Part shown: piece by piece, positions 56 to 28,469 of the stretch
Numbering within the stretch: the first letter of the stretch is position 1
Layout of the letters: each line of letters opens with the position of its first letter
Origin: a virus
Virus record (IMG/VR): IMGVR_UViG_3300032316_000572
Coordinates: 1-29,023 of that record
Direction: 5' to 3' (one strand)
Length of the DNA stretch: 29,023 bases
Program-made: the position numbers and the translations under genes
Notes under the pieces: model-generated
Seen by the model: the letters and a program-made list of their open reading frames with translations, nothing else
The model's database searches: none
What the model was told of the DNA's origin: nothing

Positions 56-328
56 TTAATCTGTTAGAGTAATTGTGCCTTCGTCAAGATTAATTTCTCC
101 CTTTCCATATTTACTAAATAAATCAGTTGAAAGGGTTTTTTCCTTTTGAGATAATTGAACTTGAAGTGATTTAAGTTCATTTTTTTGAACTTCAATAGTA
201 TCTTCAGCAAGTGCTACTTGACCTCTTCTAAAGGTTAAATCACTTATTTGTTGTCTTAATTCAATAAGTTGTTGAAGTTCGTTTTGATCTAATTTTTGGG
301 TATTTTTTGTAACTTTTCTAACAGCCAT
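56..328 (-). CDS. Small coiled-coil protein, unknown function
   Basis: This 90-aa protein starts MAVRKVTKNTQ. The central part (about residues 12-70) is rich in Gln, Glu, Leu and Lys with heptad-like spacing (NELQQLIELRQQISDL, then KNELKSLQVQLSQKEKTL), so a coiled coil is likely. The tail KYGKGEINLDEGTITLTD looks like a short conserved strand-rich end. There is no signal peptide or membrane segment. It has its own promoter-like ATATGTAT 25 nt before the start codon and no clear Shine-Dalgarno sequence. Small coiled-coil proteins with a KYGxGxI tail occur near structural genes in environmental phages, but I know no assigned function. A fibre-associated or assembly role is only a guess from position. 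Confidence 0.75.
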   Translation of the reverse strand: MAVRKVTKNTQKLDQNELQQLIELRQQISDLTFRRGQVALAEDTIEVQKNELKSLQVQLSQKEKTLSTDLFSKYGKGEINLDEGTITLTD

Positions 329-19152: not shown

Positions 19153-19709
19153 TAGCTATATAATTGATCTCTAGGATTAGCATTAGTTTGTTCAACTTTA
19201 GTAGTCGATGGATAAATATTAGACCTAAAAGGAATTGTATTAAGAACTTCAATTCTTGATTTAACTCCTGTACAGATTATTGAAAGAGAATTTCCAAAAC
19301 TATCAGTATCTTTATTCATAGAATAATCTGGAACTTTACCTACTATAAATTGATTTTCTATAATACCTGTAAATTCAAAATAATCATTATTGAATAATAC
19401 TACATCACCAACTTCAGGAACTAAATTTAATTCAACTAAAGTATCACGTAAAAAAGCAAAAGTTATTTCTTGGCTGGTATTAGGACCAAATTCGGTTTCA
19501 GTCCAAGTTTGGTCTTTTTTGGTAATAAGAGAAGGAACCAATAAAGGTTCATAGTAAATTTTTTTTTCTGCTTCTCCATATACATTAGTAGGAGTATCAG
19601 GTAAAACATATTTGTAATACCCTATCTCTGTTTGAATTATATCATTTAATAATTCTTTATTCATTGTTCTAAACAATGATACATCTCGAGATCCTCCAAA
19701 TAATGGCAT
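19152..19709 (-). CDS. gp14-like neck protein
   Basis: This 185-aa protein starts MPLFGGSRDVSLFRTMNKEL. Visible gp14-type features are IGYYKYVLPDTPTNVYGEA followed by a Tyr-rich strand, then an EVGDVVLFNNDYFEFTGI segment, close to the E-G-D-x-I-x-F ... FEI pattern of T4 gp14, and ENQFIVGKVPDYSMNKDTD. It is shorter than T4 gp14 (256 aa). T4 gp14 forms part of the head-tail neck with gp13. Both ends overlap neighbours by TAATG, so translation is coupled across 117-aa, gp14-like and gp15-like genes. Confidence 0.65.
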   Translation of the reverse strand: MPLFGGSRDVSLFRTMNKELLNDIIQTEIGYYKYVLPDTPTNVYGEAEKKIYYEPLLVPSLITKKDQTWTETEFGPNTSQEITFAFLRDTLVELNLVPEVGDVVLFNNDYFEFTGIIENQFIVGKVPDYSMNKDTDSFGNSLSIICTGVKSRIEVLNTIPFRSNIYPSTTKVEQTNANPRDQLYS

Positions 19710-20062
19710 TATATTCGTTTTAAAGTTTCAGGTCTAAATACAATACTTATTAACCCTTGGATACGTTTTTCAGGATCACCTGCGTTAGTTTTAGTTATAG
19801 TAGTTTTAAAAAAATCTAAATCCTCTTTAGGATCATTAGATCCTATAAACTTAATAGAAGCTTTATGAACTTCTTTCCCATCTTTTCGAGTCTTATTATA
19901 TCTTTCCCAGTTATCAGGAGTAGTACTTTTTAAAGTAACTATTTTTCTTATACCTCTAATACCATTGCTAATATCAGTAAAGTTGCTATCTTTAGAAGAT
20001 ACAATTACCATATCAACAGAATATATGTTAAGTTGTTCTAATATTAAGTCTGTAAGTTTCAT
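19709..20062 (-). CDS. Unknown neck-operon protein, possibly ferredoxin-like fold
   Basis: This 117-aa protein starts MKLTDLILEQLNIYSVDMVI. The order strand (VDMVIVSS), helix (ISNGIRGI), strand (KIVTLKST), strand (KASIKFIG), helix (DLDFFKTTITKT) and strand (QGLISIVFRP) suggests a small alpha/beta sandwich of ferredoxin type. This is a reading of the sequence pattern, not a search result. It has no T4 counterpart between gp13 and gp14 that I know. TAATG overlaps at both ends place it firmly in the neck operon, so a role in head completion or neck assembly is likely but unproven. Confidence 0.65.
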   Translation of the reverse strand: MKLTDLILEQLNIYSVDMVIVSSKDSNFTDISNGIRGIRKIVTLKSTTPDNWERYNKTRKDGKEVHKASIKFIGSNDPKEDLDFFKTTITKTNAGDPEKRIQGLISIVFRPETLKRI

Positions 20063-21995: not shown

Positions 21996-23657
21996 TTAGA
22001 TCTGGTTGAGATCGTGAACAATCAACTTACCATAGAAATCAGGACGAACCATTTTCTTAGCGTAACGGGTCATAATCCCTTTACGTGGTGTAAAGGAAAC
22101 AGGATCGTACACAAGAGGAGTCATAATTAATGGAATATAAGGAGCAAACACAGCACCTGTTTCAAGGAACTGGCTACCCTTGTAACCCATTAATATAACG
22201 TTTTCAACCATATATGGGTTCTTGTAGACAGTGTATCTGTTGTTGATAGCACCGAGTTTCTGAACACCCATAGCATATTTAGCTTTATCACCAGGAGAAT
22301 CAGCAGCAAATCCAGGAATAGATTCTAAAATTGTACTGACAGTGGGAGATACTACTAAGAAGTTAGCACCACCTCTTAAGGTTTTCTGGTGGATAGTGTT
22401 ACTAATAGATTGGAGTTTAACACCAATGGTTTGGAACCAAGACATTTTGGTGTAGTACATACCGGCTCCAGAAGTTGAAATGGTAGCACCAGTGCTAGAC
22501 AATTCTTTTGCAATTTGAACGCTGTAATGGTCAGTAGTATCAGCATTCTTAAGTAACATATCAAGAATTTCAAGGTCGATTTCCATTGAAATGTACTCAG
22601 AAAGGATAGAAGTTAATTCAGCTTCAGCATCAATGCTGTGGTAAGCATTGAGATCTTGAGCGAATTCAGGTGTCCATTGAGCTTTTAACTTACGAGTTTT
22701 AGCGGATACGGTATCACTTCTTAACTGGACATTAATTTCAGGAATGTCCATAGTAGAAACGGAACCATTACCAGCAAATCCGCTAGATACTCCACTCTTA
22801 CCTTCTTCAAAATCACCTCTATCATCAAGATTGTCAGGACCAATGTGCCAAGAAGCAGTAACACTCATTACACCGGCAGCACCTGATACTAAGAATTCAA
22901 TGTTAGAACCATTAACTCTGGTGTATTGGGAATAAACTCCAGCAATTTGTCCAGCAGTTGCTGAGGATACACTAAATGCTCTAATACCTTCAACATCGTA
23001 TCCACTTAAAGAAGATGCAGGAACTTGAACAACATAGTAGGTACTAGTAAGAGCACCAAAAGTTTGACCAGCCTCACTCACAGAAGCAGAGAATTCATAG
23101 TCATAGTTCAAAATACCTGCTAAAGTAGCGGATGCAGAAGTAGCAGTTACGTTAGTGGTTCTTTCGTTAATAGAGTAACCAAATCTACCAGCACCATAGA
23201 GGCCCTGTTTAGTTCTTGAAAGAGAAGGGAGTTCGTTCTTCTTTTGATCAGAAGAAGCGGCATATAAGCTACCTCCGCTTGTAAAGTTAGGCTGAGAAGT
23301 GCCATACTGGAAATCTAAGTAGAAAATAAGGCCAGAAGGTAAGTTCATAGGTTGAACAGCTACGAGGTCTTTTGCTACGATTTCACCAAATACTCTTCTT
23401 ACAAGAGGAAGAGCGACACCTGCCCAAGCTTCACTATTACCTGCACTGAATGAAGCTCCAGTGCCGGTAGAAGTTGCTTCAGAGACTAATTGTTTAGCTT
23501 GGTTCTCGAGGAGAACAGCCATATTTGATTTTTCGTTTTCGCTAGATCCTAATCCTTCTAATAAGCCGGTTTTTTCCCACTTAGAAACGAATTTTTGCGC
23601 TTCAGAGGAATAGGCTTTGTAAGGACTAGCACCTTCAAGTAATGAGGAAATGTTCAT
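21996..23657 (-). CDS. Major capsid protein, gp23-like
   Basis: The protein is 553 aa (T4 gp23 is 521 aa). The N-terminus has the gp23 pattern QKFVSKWEKTGLLEGL, then MAVLLENQAKQLVSEA. Prohead protease cleavage is predicted after Glu60, close to T4 gp23's cleavage after Glu65, leaving a mature N-terminus ATSTGTGASFSAGNSEAWAG followed by VALPLVRRVFGE. The C-terminus (RYAKKMVRPDFYGKLIVHDL) also fits gp23. It follows the scaffold gene by 21 nt and ends before a strong terminator, so scaffold and capsid form one message. There is no Shine-Dalgarno sequence. The codon use has more C-ending codons than neighbours, as expected for a very highly expressed gene. Confidence 0.95.
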   Translation of the reverse strand: MNISSLLEGASPYKAYSSEAQKFVSKWEKTGLLEGLGSSENEKSNMAVLLENQAKQLVSEATSTGTGASFSAGNSEAWAGVALPLVRRVFGEIVAKDLVAVQPMNLPSGLIFYLDFQYGTSQPNFTSGGSLYAASSDQKKNELPSLSRTKQGLYGAGRFGYSINERTTNVTATSASATLAGILNYDYEFSASVSEAGQTFGALTSTYYVVQVPASSLSGYDVEGIRAFSVSSATAGQIAGVYSQYTRVNGSNIEFLVSGAAGVMSVTASWHIGPDNLDDRGDFEEGKSGVSSGFAGNGSVSTMDIPEINVQLRSDTVSAKTRKLKAQWTPEFAQDLNAYHSIDAEAELTSILSEYISMEIDLEILDMLLKNADTTDHYSVQIAKELSSTGATISTSGAGMYYTKMSWFQTIGVKLQSISNTIHQKTLRGGANFLVVSPTVSTILESIPGFAADSPGDKAKYAMGVQKLGAINNRYTVYKNPYMVENVILMGYKGSQFLETGAVFAPYIPLIMTPLVYDPVSFTPRKGIMTRYAKKMVRPDFYGKLIVHDLNQI

Positions 23658-23659
23658 TG

Positions 23660-23690
23660 TTTTTAAGGTTTAATTTTTTTAAGGTTTAAT
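23660..23690. repeat. Tandem 15-bp repeat across the scaffold stop
   Basis: Coding-strand ATTAAACCTTAAAAA occurs twice, at 23676-23690 and 23660-23674, with one base between. The first copy encodes the last scaffold residues and its stop. The second fills the gap just before the capsid ATG. Confidence 0.85.
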
Positions 23691-24629
23691 ATTTGCTAAT
23701 TTTTGGAATCTTAAAATTGTCTGGTCTACTGATTCCGTTAAGACTTGTTTAGCAACAGGCTTAGAACTAAGTCCTAATCCTTCTTTAATAGAACGCTTTT
23801 CAATACCAGACATTGTAAAGCTTTCTTTGAGTGTGTTATAAACGAGTTTAGCTTCTTTAGGAGTAGAAGCTCCATCTAATGATTCAACTATTTTTAATTT
23901 TTGAGAATCAGTTAAATGATTTTCTTTAAAGAGTTTGTTACAATAAAGAAGTTTAGAGTTTAAAAGATTCATTTCGGAAATAGATTCTTTTAAAGAGAAG
24001 ATAGTGTCAAGAGCTTCTTTAAGCTTCTTTTCGGTTTCTTCTTTTTCTTTTTCAGCTTTAGCCTTCTTAAGGCGAGCTTCTTCTAAAGCTTCTTCTAATT
24101 CTTTATCGTAATCAGATTTAGCTTCTTCCATTTTGTCATCTTCTTTGTCTTTACCTTCTTCAAGTTCAGCTTCGATTTCAGCTATAAGAGCATCTAAATC
24201 AAAAGCTTCTTCCATTTTATCGTCTTTATCTTCTTTTTTAGCTTCTTCCATATACTCATCATCATCTTCTTCTTCTAATGAAGCAAGTTCTGCCATAAGT
24301 TCTTCAAGATCGATTTCTTCTTCGTACATTTCTCCTTCAGAAAAATCTTCAAGATCATAATATTCTTCAGAATCAGGAAGTACAGATTCATCATCTAATC
24401 CTAAATCATCAGTAGCACTCATATATGCTTCATCATCATCTTCAAACTCAGGACCATCAAATTCTTCCTCGAGTTCTTCTTCTTCTAATTCTTCAGCTAA
24501 TTTAGCTGAAAACATAGATTTAAGTTTTGAGTCGAATGCTTCTTCAAGTGCTAATTTAGCATTTTGAAGAGCAACTTCTCTTACAGCTTTTGCATCAGCA
24601 ATAGCTTCTTTTAATAAGTCTTTTGCCAT
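23679..24629 (-). CDS. Prohead scaffold/core protein, gp22-like
   Basis: The protein is 316 aa (T4 gp22 is 269 aa). The N-terminus MAKDLLKEAIADAKAVREVA is helical. Residues 45-170 are extremely acidic with DDKMEEA-type repeats. Residues 170-220 are a Glu/Lys coiled coil. The C-terminal third (LDTIFSLKESISEM, KENHLTDSQKLKIVESLDG, KLVYNTLKESF) matches the pattern of the gp22 conserved region. In T4 this protein forms the inner core of the prohead and is destroyed by gp21. Its place between the protease and capsid genes is the T4 order 21-22-23. It has a long leader (129 nt from the promoter-like element to ATG) with two hairpins. Confidence 0.88.
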   Translation of the reverse strand: MAKDLLKEAIADAKAVREVALQNAKLALEEAFDSKLKSMFSAKLAEELEEEELEEEFDGPEFEDDDEAYMSATDDLGLDDESVLPDSEEYYDLEDFSEGEMYEEEIDLEELMAELASLEEEDDDEYMEEAKKEDKDDKMEEAFDLDALIAEIEAELEEGKDKEDDKMEEAKSDYDKELEEALEEARLKKAKAEKEKEETEKKLKEALDTIFSLKESISEMNLLNSKLLYCNKLFKENHLTDSQKLKIVESLDGASTPKEAKLVYNTLKESFTMSGIEKRSIKEGLGLSSKPVAKQVLTESVDQTILRFQKLANIKP

Positions 24630-24790: not shown

Positions 24791-25393
24791 TTAACATTTA
24801 CACATACCTGTGTTATCACAGATTATGTCTCTAATTATGTTATTGATTTTATTAAGGGAGGGAGAAGTGTATTCTTTATGTTCTCTAATAGGTTTCATAA
24901 AAGCACCTTTAGTAGAAGGAGTAGATACAAAGTCAAAACATAATAAATCAAAATCTTCTTGGACTAATAATGTTCCCTCATTGTTTTCTTTAACAGAACC
25001 CATACCTCTAGAAGAAATTCCAATAGTTATGCCGTTTCTAAATAATTCCTTTAAAATATTACCTGATGGGGTAGATAATATTTCTATTTCCCCACATACA
25101 TCATTCCCATCCCACCAAATTTTTTTAACATTATGGGATACATTATTTAAATTTATAACAGATGAATCAGGATGATCTAACTCTCCTAAAGCGCGATTTT
25201 CATCAATAAGTTCTTGATATTTTTTTAATTCTCTTTCTAAAATATCTCGTTCATAAATTCTTCCGTTATGATTTTTTTCACCGGCTTTTTGAATAATACC
25301 TGATACTACTAAAGGAGCGTTTTCCTTTATAGAATTTTCAACTATTAATTTATCAACCCTAAAGGGAATATGTTCTGTGAGAAGTTGATTCAT
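24791..25393 (-). CDS. Prohead maturation protease, gp21-like
   Basis: The protein is 200 aa (T4 gp21 is 212 aa). The family pattern is clear: NHNGRIYERDILERELKKY near 41-60, RALGELDHP with the catalytic-type His74, the STPSGNILKELF segment near 107-117, GISSRGMGS near 125-133 with the nucleophile-type Ser at 127 or 128, and DFDLLCFDFVSTPSTKGAFM. This is the serine protease with herpesvirus-assemblin fold that cleaves scaffold and capsid proteins, usually after (I/L)-x-E. The start overlaps the stop of the 46-aa gene (ATGA). The last nine residues, CDNTGMCKC, hold three cysteines, which is odd for a cytoplasmic phage protease. Confidence 0.93.
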   Translation of the reverse strand: MNQLLTEHIPFRVDKLIVENSIKENAPLVVSGIIQKAGEKNHNGRIYERDILERELKKYQELIDENRALGELDHPDSSVINLNNVSHNVKKIWWDGNDVCGEIEILSTPSGNILKELFRNGITIGISSRGMGSVKENNEGTLLVQEDFDLLCFDFVSTPSTKGAFMKPIREHKEYTSPSLNKINNIIRDIICDNTGMCKC

Positions 25394-25530
25394 CGTCCTT
25401 GTCCTCTATATAGTTTTAAGTAATTTTTAGAATTTTTATGAGAACTTGATTTAGATTTAGAATGAACATTAGGATTACTTTTTTTGTAATCAGTTGGCTT
25501 AAAATCATAAGCGTTTATTTTTTTACCCAT
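25390..25530 (-). CDS. Small basic head protein, T4 gene 67/68 position
   Basis: This 46-aa protein starts MGKKINAYDFKPTDYKKSNP and ends NYLKLYRGQGR. It has at least 12 Lys/Arg and many Ser. It lies between the 55-aa gene (3-nt gap) and the protease, with its TGA overlapping the protease ATG. Translation coupling to the protease is therefore likely. The AGAGGACAAGG that encodes RGQG also gives the protease a purine-rich, Shine-Dalgarno-like sequence. T4 has two small prohead-core genes (67 and 68) at this place, but sequence similarity is not evident, so homology is only suggested by position. A short basic protein could neutralise the acidic scaffold. Confidence 0.75.
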   Translation of the reverse strand: MGKKINAYDFKPTDYKKSNPNVHSKSKSSSHKNSKNYLKLYRGQGR

Positions 25531-25533
25531 AAC

Positions 25534-25701
25534 TTAATATTTTATTTTTTTAGGTTTTTTTCTTTTTGAAAAGGCAAATGGTGTAGCATATGCTTCAGAC
25601 CCACCAGCAGAAAAAGAAGCACCTGTTCCTGTAGATGAACCTTCTTTTATATATTTTTTAATTATTTCACGAATTATATGTCTTAACTGAGAATAATTCA
25701 T
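25534..25701 (-). CDS. Small protein sharing the capsid mature N-terminal segment
   Basis: The protein is 55 aa: a basic helix MNYSQLRHIIREIIKKYIKE, then GSSTGTGASFSAGGSEAYA, then PFAFSKRKKPKKIKY. Residues 23-39 match capsid residues 63-79 at 15 of 17 positions (STGTGASFSAGxSEAxA). The preceding I-K-E at 18-20 fits the (I/L)-x-E cleavage rule of T4 prohead protease, at the place equivalent to the predicted capsid cleavage site. The codons differ at many synonymous positions, so the likeness is kept at the protein level. The start overlaps the upstream 286-aa gene by ATGA. The gene sits in the T4 gene 67/68 position. I infer a minor prohead component processed with the capsid. Confidence 0.82.
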   Translation of the reverse strand: MNYSQLRHIIREIIKKYIKEGSSTGTGASFSAGGSEAYATPFAFSKRKKPKKIKY

Positions 25702-26558
25702 TGGACTATAGGTAAAGTTGAAGCAAAAGTATGGTTTTTTAATTCATCTACTAATTCATAGTAATTCATTAAATTAATTACATTATCATCGTGAATAGCA
25801 GACTTATTACACAATGGCTGGAGTAAATTTTTAACTTCGTTTAATTTAATTTGGGTAATTTGATCCGTTAAAGGAATTAAAGTAGTTAATTCTTTTTTAA
25901 CTCCTTGTATTTCTTTGTTAAGAAAATCTTTAAATTTAGGGCTATCAGTAATGTTATAAACATATTCTTTAAGTAAAGAACGTTGTTTATTAGATAAAAC
26001 TGAATATTTAGCATTAAACTTTTCTAATAAAAGTTTGTAAGCTAACATTTTGGTTTCTTTATCTGATTTTTGAAACTCTTCTAATATTATATTCTTTTCA
26101 GATAAAGAAGATGTTTTATTAGTGATATGTTCTAATACTAAGATTTTAGAATTAGCTAATATAATAGGGTTAGTATCTTTATTTTCTAGTAAAGTATAAA
26201 TTGAAGCATATATTTTGTAATTGCTAATTTTAGCTTTAAAGAAATTATCTATATCATAATTTTCTTTTATACTTTTAACTAAATTATATTTTTCCTTTTT
26301 TAATAAAGATTTATTTAATTTGTTATAAGCATTTAAAAGTGTTTCTAATAAAACTGAAGCGCTGTTTTCTTTTTCAAACTTTTTATTTAGTAAAGTATGG
26401 TATATTTGATATTCTTTTAATATAAAAGAATTTTCATTAAAGTGCTTTCTAAGGATATATATAGCTTTAGGAGGTATATTAGAAATAGTCTCCTCAGTTA
26501 TTTGTCGAGTTAAAAGCTCGAATAGAATCCCAGTATTTTTATACTTGGAATGTTTCAT
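25698..26558 (-). CDS. Helical protein of unknown function in head operon
   Basis: This 286-aa protein starts MKHSKYKNTGILFELLTRQI. It is Lys/Leu/Asn-rich and predicted almost wholly alpha-helical, with no Gly-rich loops or nucleotide motifs. The N-terminal KNTGILFELLTRQIT segment looks conserved, as I recall similar starts in environmental T4-like phages, but no function is known to me. The gene lies between portal and prohead genes and heads a coupled set: this gene, the 55-aa gene, the 46-aa gene and the protease, joined by ATGA overlaps. T4 has no protein of this size here. A role in prohead initiation or scaffold assembly is inferred from location only. Confidence 0.8.
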   Translation of the reverse strand: MKHSKYKNTGILFELLTRQITEETISNIPPKAIYILRKHFNENSFILKEYQIYHTLLNKKFEKENSASVLLETLLNAYNKLNKSLLKKEKYNLVKSIKENYDIDNFFKAKISNYKIYASIYTLLENKDTNPIILANSKILVLEHITNKTSSLSEKNIILEEFQKSDKETKMLAYKLLLEKFNAKYSVLSNKQRSLLKEYVYNITDSPKFKDFLNKEIQGVKKELTTLIPLTDQITQIKLNEVKNLLQPLCNKSAIHDDNVINLMNYYELVDELKNHTFASTLPIVQ

Positions 26559-26606: not shown

Positions 26607-28469
26607 TCATTCATCCAGTATATTTTTCTCGTCTAACAATGAACTATTATGATCTTCAGTAAGAAGAACTTGTTTTCTTAAACGATTTAGGGCTAATTTT
26701 TTGGCCATCCTTGTGTTGTTCTCCAAAGCTAAAGAAGAAACATTAGAAACATTATTAGTTCTATCAGGGGTATCATCACCTGTTAAGCCCTTCTTACCAA
26801 GAGGATCACGGGAGAAATTTGAGTCCTCACTACCATAGCTAGATCCAAATTTCTTTTTAGGTCTTCCTGGTTCATCTTCATTATATCCATCAGGAACATC
26901 TTTAATTCCTTTATCTCTTTTATTAGAATAAAGGTTAGCTAAATCGTGAGGTGTTCCATATGATTCACCAGTTTCAATAGGATCGTTACCTTCGTTTTCT
27001 ATTTGATTTAATCTAAAAGCAAACATAGCATCATCAAGAACTTTATCGTTTTCATCTAAAAGTTGTTCTCTTGAAATATTAAAGATATTTTTAGCAATCC
27101 ATTCCTTAGAGAATATTTTTTTATCTAAAATTGAACTTGCCAAATTTACTTTATTAGTATATAACTCAGTCTTTTCTTGTTCAAATACAATTGAGGGGCC
27201 TGTTAATGATAATTCAAAATCGATCAATTGTTCATTTTCAAATCCTTGAGTATATAAATGAACTAGGGCTATTTTAGTTAGTTCTGATACTATAGTGCGC
27301 TGAAGTCGTTCTATAGTGCGAGCAAATCTAATATCCATAGCAGCTAATGTAGATTTACCTTCTAAATTTTCATCATACCCAATAAAAGCTTTAGGGATTT
27401 TTAATGCTGCTAGCATTTTATTTTTCAAATATTCAATATCTGTGGTTCCGTCATAGTCAAGACCTTTAGTAGTATCAATCTTTGTATTTGAATCTCCACC
27501 TCTTACTGGGATATAAAAATCCTCAGTCATATTTTGAATATTAAACTTTAAATTATAATCTCCTGTTTGTTGATCTATGTAAGGAGTCTTTTTCATCCTT
27601 GATATAGTATCATTCATAAAACTATCAATTTCATTAGGAGGTATAGCACCTACATTAATATAGAAAATTCGTTTTTCAGGAGCTCTCATAATACGATGGA
27701 TTAACATCGCATCTTCCATTAACATTAATTGTTTAAAAGTTTTACGAGCAGGTTCTAAATAAGAACGACCATAAGGGAGATAATTGTTATCTGATAACAA
27801 TCTAAAATGGGCTACTTCATAGTTTTCTAAAGCTAATTGATCGCGTTTTTGTGGAACCCCATATAAATTTCCCTGAGCTAAACCATTAGGGTCAATTATA
27901 AATTTTACATAATTAGGATTGTCAGGGTCCATTCCTTCTTCTCTTACTACTTGATAAACTGAGAGAGGGAGAACATTAAAAACACCAAATTTTTCTGAGA
28001 TTTCTAATTTTAGATAAAAATCTCCATATTTACACATTTGGCGAACCCACGAAGGAAGATTAAATTCTATATTTAATACATCATAAAATAAATTATGAAG
28101 AATTCGTTTAATGTTTTCATTATTAGATTTAATAGTTAAAACATCTCCATATTCATTTTTTAAGGTAGATTCTTCAGAAACAATATCTAAAGTAGCTGCT
28201 ATAATTCCATCATAATCCATAGCTTCATAATCACTATAAAGCTGAAGTCTCATAGAAGAGTAATTAAGAGTAGGATTATATTGTAATGAAGATCCTACAG
28301 GACGATGCAATTTAGTAAATCTATCATACAAAGAATTAGATTCTAAACTACCATATTTTTGTATTTTAGCAGTATCAATAATTCGGAGTTGTTTTCCTCC
28401 AACATTTCGTATAATAACATCTGTTGAAAATAGACGCTTTAATCGAGTAAATAATGTAGTATCCGCCAT
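26607..28469 (-). CDS. Portal protein, gp20-like
   Basis: The protein is 620 aa (T4 gp20 is 524 aa). It shows the gp20 pattern YDRFTKLHRPVGSSLQYN, then YSDYEAMDYDGIIAATLDIV, KNEYGDVLTIKS, WVRQMCKYGDFYLKL, YGRSYLEPARKTFKQLMLME, APEKRIFYINVGAIPPNE, and GLDYDGTTDIEYLKNKMLAA followed by KIPKAFIGYDENLEGKSTLA. The dodecameric portal is the packaging vertex for DNA and the base for prohead assembly. The C-terminal 110 residues (from about GTPHDLANLYSNKRDKG) are polar and low in structure, accounting for much of the extra length. It follows the terminase gene by 34 nt with ATATTTAT between. Confidence 0.95.
   Translation of the reverse strand: MADTTLFTRLKRLFSTDVIIRNVGGKQLRIIDTAKIQKYGSLESNSLYDRFTKLHRPVGSSLQYNPTLNYSSMRLQLYSDYEAMDYDGIIAATLDIVSEESTLKNEYGDVLTIKSNNENIKRILHNLFYDVLNIEFNLPSWVRQMCKYGDFYLKLEISEKFGVFNVLPLSVYQVVREEGMDPDNPNYVKFIIDPNGLAQGNLYGVPQKRDQLALENYEVAHFRLLSDNNYLPYGRSYLEPARKTFKQLMLMEDAMLIHRIMRAPEKRIFYINVGAIPPNEIDSFMNDTISRMKKTPYIDQQTGDYNLKFNIQNMTEDFYIPVRGGDSNTKIDTTKGLDYDGTTDIEYLKNKMLAALKIPKAFIGYDENLEGKSTLAAMDIRFARTIERLQRTIVSELTKIALVHLYTQGFENEQLIDFELSLTGPSIVFEQEKTELYTNKVNLASSILDKKIFSKEWIAKNIFNISREQLLDENDKVLDDAMFAFRLNQIENEGNDPIETGESYGTPHDLANLYSNKRDKGIKDVPDGYNEDEPGRPKKKFGSSYGSEDSNFSRDPLGKKGLTGDDTPDRTNNVSNVSSLALENNTRMAKKLALNRLRKQVLLTEDHNSSLLDEKNILDE

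Follow-up and report, generated by a model that had tools for sequence, protein, structure and literature searches.

A 55-aa protein encoded between the portal and prohead protease genes of a phage carries a near copy of the segment that follows the predicted maturation cut in that phage's own major capsid protein (MCP), and across relatives the two segments co-vary, residue by residue in long-form lineages only. The likeness is real, lies at the protein level and is conserved, and the protein that bears it is undescribed in the family libraries searched. We propose, with a probability of roughly 0.4, that the small protein enters the prohead, is cut there by the protease and would then dock through its new N-terminus as an N-fist in trans.

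Results

The window analysed here is the whole 29,023-nt stretch of IMG/VR record IMGVR_UViG_3300032316_000572. Its head genes lie on the minus strand and are transcribed in the order portal, orf286, 55-aa gene, 46-aa gene, S77 protease, acidic scaffold-like protein and gp23-type MCP. The portal protein (26607..28469) belongs to the gp20 family (PF07230, E 2e-68), and the gp21-like prohead protease (24791..25393) is a Peptidase_S77 (PF03420, E 6e-30; phrog_207). We assigned the MCP (21996..23657) to the Gp23 family because it matches PF07068 above the cut-off (E 2e-77) and can be aligned to T4 gp23. The protein at the gp22 position (23679..24629) is termed scaffold-like from its place and its very acidic charge (net −54); family searches gave no confident match for it. 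The small gene occupies 25534..25701. An earlier note on this DNA, made from the sequence, had the ORF, its coordinates and its residue numbers right, and its placing of the gene at the gp67/gp68 position, in the portal–protease interval, was borne out. The ATG of the small gene overlaps the stop codon of orf286 (ATGA), and this −4 overlap is found in 92 of 158 loci.

The orf286 gene (25698..26558) encodes a conserved 286-aa protein of unassigned function and without a confident family. It is present beside the portal gene in nearly all related loci, and its placement is about as conserved as that of the protease. The 46-aa protein sm46 (25390..25530), between the small gene and the protease gene, is basic (net +10), undescribed and ends in a VHxKxKxSxxKxSKxYxKxYRGQGR-like sequence; relatives occur in 41 loci (for example L169:3488), and the small protein of locus L092 ends in YRGQGK, like this motif. 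Also on the minus strand, the protein encoded at 19709..20062 begins with MKLTDLILE, another N-terminal L/I-x-E site, and is possibly another head or neck protein that is cleaved or targeted.

The small protein reads MNYSQLRHIIREIIKKYIKE/GSSTGTGASFSAGGSEAYATPFAFSKRKKPKKIKY, with the slash at the predicted cut, and the MCP has LVSE60/ATSTGTGASFSAGNSEAWA. Codons for the capsid-like segment GSSTGTGASFSAGGSEAYA (residues 21-39) lie at 25585..25641, and those for MCP residues 61-79, the N-fist equivalent by alignment to T4 gp23, at 23421..23477, both on the minus strand. BLASTP aligned residues 4-39 of the small protein with residues 44-79 of its own MCP, ungapped and with E20 opposite E60 (18/36 identical; composition-adjusted E 1e-9). 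The match runs from the helix through the Glu into STGTGASFSAGxSEAxA, with 15 of 17 residues identical in the core. When the small protein was shuffled 50,000 times, the top score was 41, compared with 74 observed, and five nearby proteins (portal, orf286, sm46, protease and scaffold) gave background scores only in the same test. The small protein had been said to resemble the post-cleavage N-terminus of the MCP; this resemblance holds, and the observation is broader than first noted.

Residues 1-20 of the small protein form a predicted helical prodomain (net charge +3), followed by the capsid-like segment (21-39), a conserved TPxAF motif (40-44) and a Lys-rich tail (45-55); the part that cleavage would release has a net charge of +6. 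AF2 predicted a helix at residues 3-21 and nothing else, and the capsid-like segment is predicted to be disordered and is of low complexity. The predicted protease site is IKE20/G21. For T4 gp21 a short L/I-x-E motif suffices (PMC9026906); IKE has this form, which makes the small protein of the window a predicted gp21-type substrate by motif. In 110 of 110 genomes a Glu precedes the segment (P1) in both proteins. P3 of the small protein is L or I in 86 of these genomes, and the MCP mostly has V at P3 and L/I at P4. Since the predicted sites are close to the T4 rule, we counted them in favour of a protease-cleaved prohead protein, and the S77 protease is expected to cut both the small protein and the MCP after Glu.

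In T4, gp21 removes a 65-residue propeptide from gp23, and the freed N-terminus reaches the outer surface upon expansion and contacts four subunits (PMC9958956). The N-fist of gp23 comprises residues 66-91 (PMC7136217). MCP residues 77-121 align with T4 gp23 90-134 (MCP 77 on T4 90), so that MCP 61-78 falls on the N-fist; it is by position only, within the first ~25 mature residues, that this stretch qualifies as one. The mature N-terminus of the MCP is predicted at A61, and all of 38 homologues have E60 and E76. Modelling the MCP with AF2 from 38 sequences gave a result too poor for use (pLDDT about 59.5, and <50 at residues 61-86). As in T4 gp23, the stretch consists of the first residues past the maturation cut, but the T4 N-fist is part of gp23 alone, whereas here a further protein, separate from the MCP, bears a copy as well.

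We collected 345 loci from scans of viral contigs and phage records and annotated them by profile search. The earlier note had suggested looking for small ORFs between portal and protease in relatives, and they were found: a motif-bearing protein lies between orf286 and the protease in 282 of the 291 loci that have both genes, and most of the remaining nine show visible variants of it. Among distinct pairs its median length is 124 aa (range 52-594). Long members have an additional FNIHDWQ-type part at the N-terminus, a coiled region at the C-terminus, or both. The core that stays constant reads E-[MAG..][SN]-x-T-G ... Y-x-TP-x-AF, and the stretch behind it is mostly basic. Besides their coiled C-terminal region, long forms in L015, L017, L046-L071, L107 and L285 contain extra LxE-type sites, as if they were a cleavable peptide chain, and the L285 protein has a second TPxAF motif.

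No model in Pfam, PHROG or NCBIfam convincingly matched the small protein. Weak matches of phrog_3286 and coiled-coil models to long forms were put down to composition. A tblastn search of the phage collection with the 55-aa protein gave no match, and the sole match of long-form queries was Microcystis phage Mel-JY01. Named relatives are gp072 of Flavobacterium phage immuto and a hypothetical protein of Mel-JY01. Short or distant forms are what both Mel-JY01 and the one cultured group, that of immuto, carry; immuto, whose host is Flavobacterium sp. LMO8, is a short-form member, and virion proteomics of immuto was not found in a related publication. Because the MCP is nearer to that of RM378 than to that of T4 itself, the group probably belongs to the Far-T4 phages (PMC4360716). 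T4 has gp23 and gp24; the relatives checked, several of them >150 kb, have one Gp23-family gene, and no gp24-like paralogue was detected at E 0.01 in the large relatives (G001-G011, W01 and W02). A degenerate TGTGxS[FIV] DNA pattern occurs at one or two places in each large relative that matches it, and in G001, G006 and G009, which have two, the positions agree with the small gene and the MCP gene.

For co-variation we compared the post-Glu segments of the small protein and the MCP in 110 distinct genome pairs, and used 54 non-overlapping sister pairs to cancel shared ancestry. In these tests, which rest on common alignment and trimming choices and are mutually non-independent, own small protein/MCP pairs scored 31.75, compared with 27.9 (protease clusters at threshold 0.6) to 29.9 (0.9) after permutation. 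The corresponding z values for permutation inside protease clusters were 7.3 (0.6) and 4.4 (0.9, ~90% alike). Among the sister pairs, 32 favoured the own pairing, 13 the opposite and nine were even (45 informative; sign test p 0.0033, Wilcoxon p 8e-5). When the MCP was scanned in 91 windows of 18 aa, residues 61-78 ranked first. A weaker co-varying stretch at about MCP 289-312 (p 0.0075 and 0.047) may be due to chance among the 91 windows. A column-by-column comparison of 37 gapless pairs yielded no more than weak signals in single columns (columns 1 and 4, p 0.04-0.05).

The covariation across relatives, whose absence the earlier note had named as a refutation, is thus present overall, and at the level of residues it divides by lineage. 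Long-form lineages showed residue-level tracking (19 vs 5 informative sister pairs, p 0.003); in short-form lineages tracking residue by residue was absent (10 positive vs 12 negative sister pairs), and only type switches are shared with the MCP. Twenty-five unseen pairs from further scans pointed in the same direction (7 vs 3; p 0.053, borderline alone), as did the long forms among them (6 vs 1, p 0.031). In L085 and L124 the two segments are not a close match.

The segments fall into types, which we assigned by post hoc rules drawn up with the data in view; L099, L107 and L173 were set by hand. Under these rules, long forms of the small protein occur with MCP arm type B in 58 of 58 cases and never with A or C, and short forms with type A or C in 50 of 52, the two exceptions with type B being L323 and L342. 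The unseen pairs also repeated this coupling once L389, missed by the length rule, was counted as long. On a tree of protease and orf286, the type of the small protein changes eight times and that of the MCP seven times. In seven independent switch pairs the MCP changed the same way in five to six and the opposite way in none (sign test, median p 0.0625). Several switches occurred between genomes whose protease, encoded between the small gene and the MCP gene, is 91-97% identical.

Discussion

The reading that we favour, that the small protein supplies an N-fist in trans, can be set out as a series of inferred steps. The N-terminal helix would take the small protein into the prohead. There the S77 protease would cut it after E20, and the MCP after E60, which would leave both with a near-identical N-terminus, A/G-x-STGTGASFSAGxSEA-W/Y. 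The released small peptide would occupy the N-fist docking groove of the MCP on the shell lattice, either as a temporary placeholder until shell expansion or permanently where the N-fist of the MCP is unavailable, and the Lys-rich tail would hold acidic scaffold or DNA. Some of the protein would be expected in virions. As the docking groove is built by the MCP, the mimic would have to follow the capsid's own segment. Put more generally, the phage may make a separate copy of its capsid locking arm, which is processed by the same protease, fills or holds docking sites and co-evolves with the capsid; we offer this wider formulation tentatively. The earlier note had considered capsid-arm competition, templating or locking, a protease substrate and decoration of the inner shell, an interpretation that as a whole is partly supported. 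Since expansion of the T4 head brings the N-fist to the outer surface, decoration by the mimic need not be confined to the inner shell.

Among the alternatives, the one that survives best is that the mimic does not take the N-fist groove and that the two segments instead share a third binding partner (the scaffold, the portal or an accessory head protein) or pair with each other like with like. It would explain the co-variation and the type coupling equally well, and the Lys-rich tail of the small protein and the very acidic scaffold are in line with it. However, no protein with matching co-variation is known, the MCP being the one tested, and the weaker MCP window (295-312, p 0.0075) is unconvincing over 91 tests. 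We consider this alternative unlikely.

Still less probable is that the segments are the primed side of two S77 substrates, alike since the enzyme reads them. The first three residues past the cut do co-vary (35 sister pairs positive, 15 negative), and both proteins mostly have S or N at P2'. Without these three residues the sister sign test loses significance (25 vs 17, p 0.14), which indicates that part of the signal adjoins the cleavage site, while the Wilcoxon test (p 0.006) and the permutations (z 4.2-6.5) stay significant. Nevertheless, the co-variation persisted with the first three or four residues trimmed off (permutation z 4.1-6.5; Wilcoxon p 0.006-0.008). Moreover, scaffold, portal, orf286 and protease have no such segment, and T4 gp21 needs the short L/I-x-E motif and no more (PMC9026906).

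The segments could also be flexible Gly/Ser/Thr/Ala linkers past a cleavage site, alike through composition and shared phylogeny, as their low complexity and predicted disorder would allow. This reading is largely refuted by the 15 of 17 identities and the composition-adjusted E value, by the sister contrasts, which cancel ancestry and are positive, and by the peak of the MCP scan at residues 61-78, and we hold it to be improbable.

An origin of the small gene by duplication of the MCP 5' region, with gene conversion keeping the two alike, is barely credible: the gap-free alignment across the cleavage Glu into the preceding helix makes a common origin possible, but codon agreement at identical residues was 0.473 within genomes vs 0.46-0.47 between cluster mates, and in long-form genomes 0.496 vs 0.525 expected from codon usage. 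In the window the codons agree at 4 of 14 identical residues. With agreement at chance level, recent DNA copying or conversion between the two genes is ruled out, as the earlier note had argued. Very old conversion events are possible and, saturated at synonymous sites, would leave no visible trace. The segments co-vary while their codons agree no better than chance, which upholds the protein-level constraint that had been proposed.

To return to the N-fist in trans, the nearest parallels are the T4 core proteins gp67 and gp68, which share with the 55-aa protein the place in the head cluster (between gp20 and gp21) and small size. They are targets of the gp21-type protease (PMC9026906), as the 55-aa protein with its consensus-like site presumably is. 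Comparison by hhalign with gp67 and gp68 (T4 single sequences as targets) gave probabilities <1%, and gp67 is strongly acidic (−25), whereas the small protein is basic. T4 gp67, gp68 and gp22 contain no convincing copy of the post-cleavage segment of their own MCP. A match of T4 gp21 to the gp23 N-fist (score 37) lies inside the protease body and, at p 0.005 over several tests, was attributed to chance. Of the proteins tested around the protease in HTVC008M, S-CAM1 and phiKT1024 (a set of pelagiphage, cyanophage and Vibrio phage), none is a convincing mimic either. In this small sample of outsiders, then, the mimic looks specific to the Far-T4-like group.

In adenovirus, N-terminal peptides of pVI and pVII occupy the same pocket of the MCP (hexon), and competition during assembly has been proposed (PMC8156859). 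These too are cleaved internal proteins with capsid-binding N-terminal peptides, as docking of the mimic would imply here. In adenovirus, however, two minor proteins compete, whereas here a minor protein copies the capsid's own arm, and we claim no homology. In phage P1 the shell is lined near the pentons by DarA, a protein cut next to the MCP cut; unlike the small protein, DarA and Hdf are large folded proteins, and the available part of that account mentions no likeness to the MCP N-terminus (PMC12810830).

Small cleaved core proteins of the T4 type are poorly understood. Our data tie one family of them, absent from the Pfam, PHROG and NCBIfam libraries searched and named here, to a precise part of the MCP by co-variation across more than 100 uncultured phages. 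This gives the small protein a testable site of action, and it could bear on how vertices are locked in shells without a gp24 paralogue.
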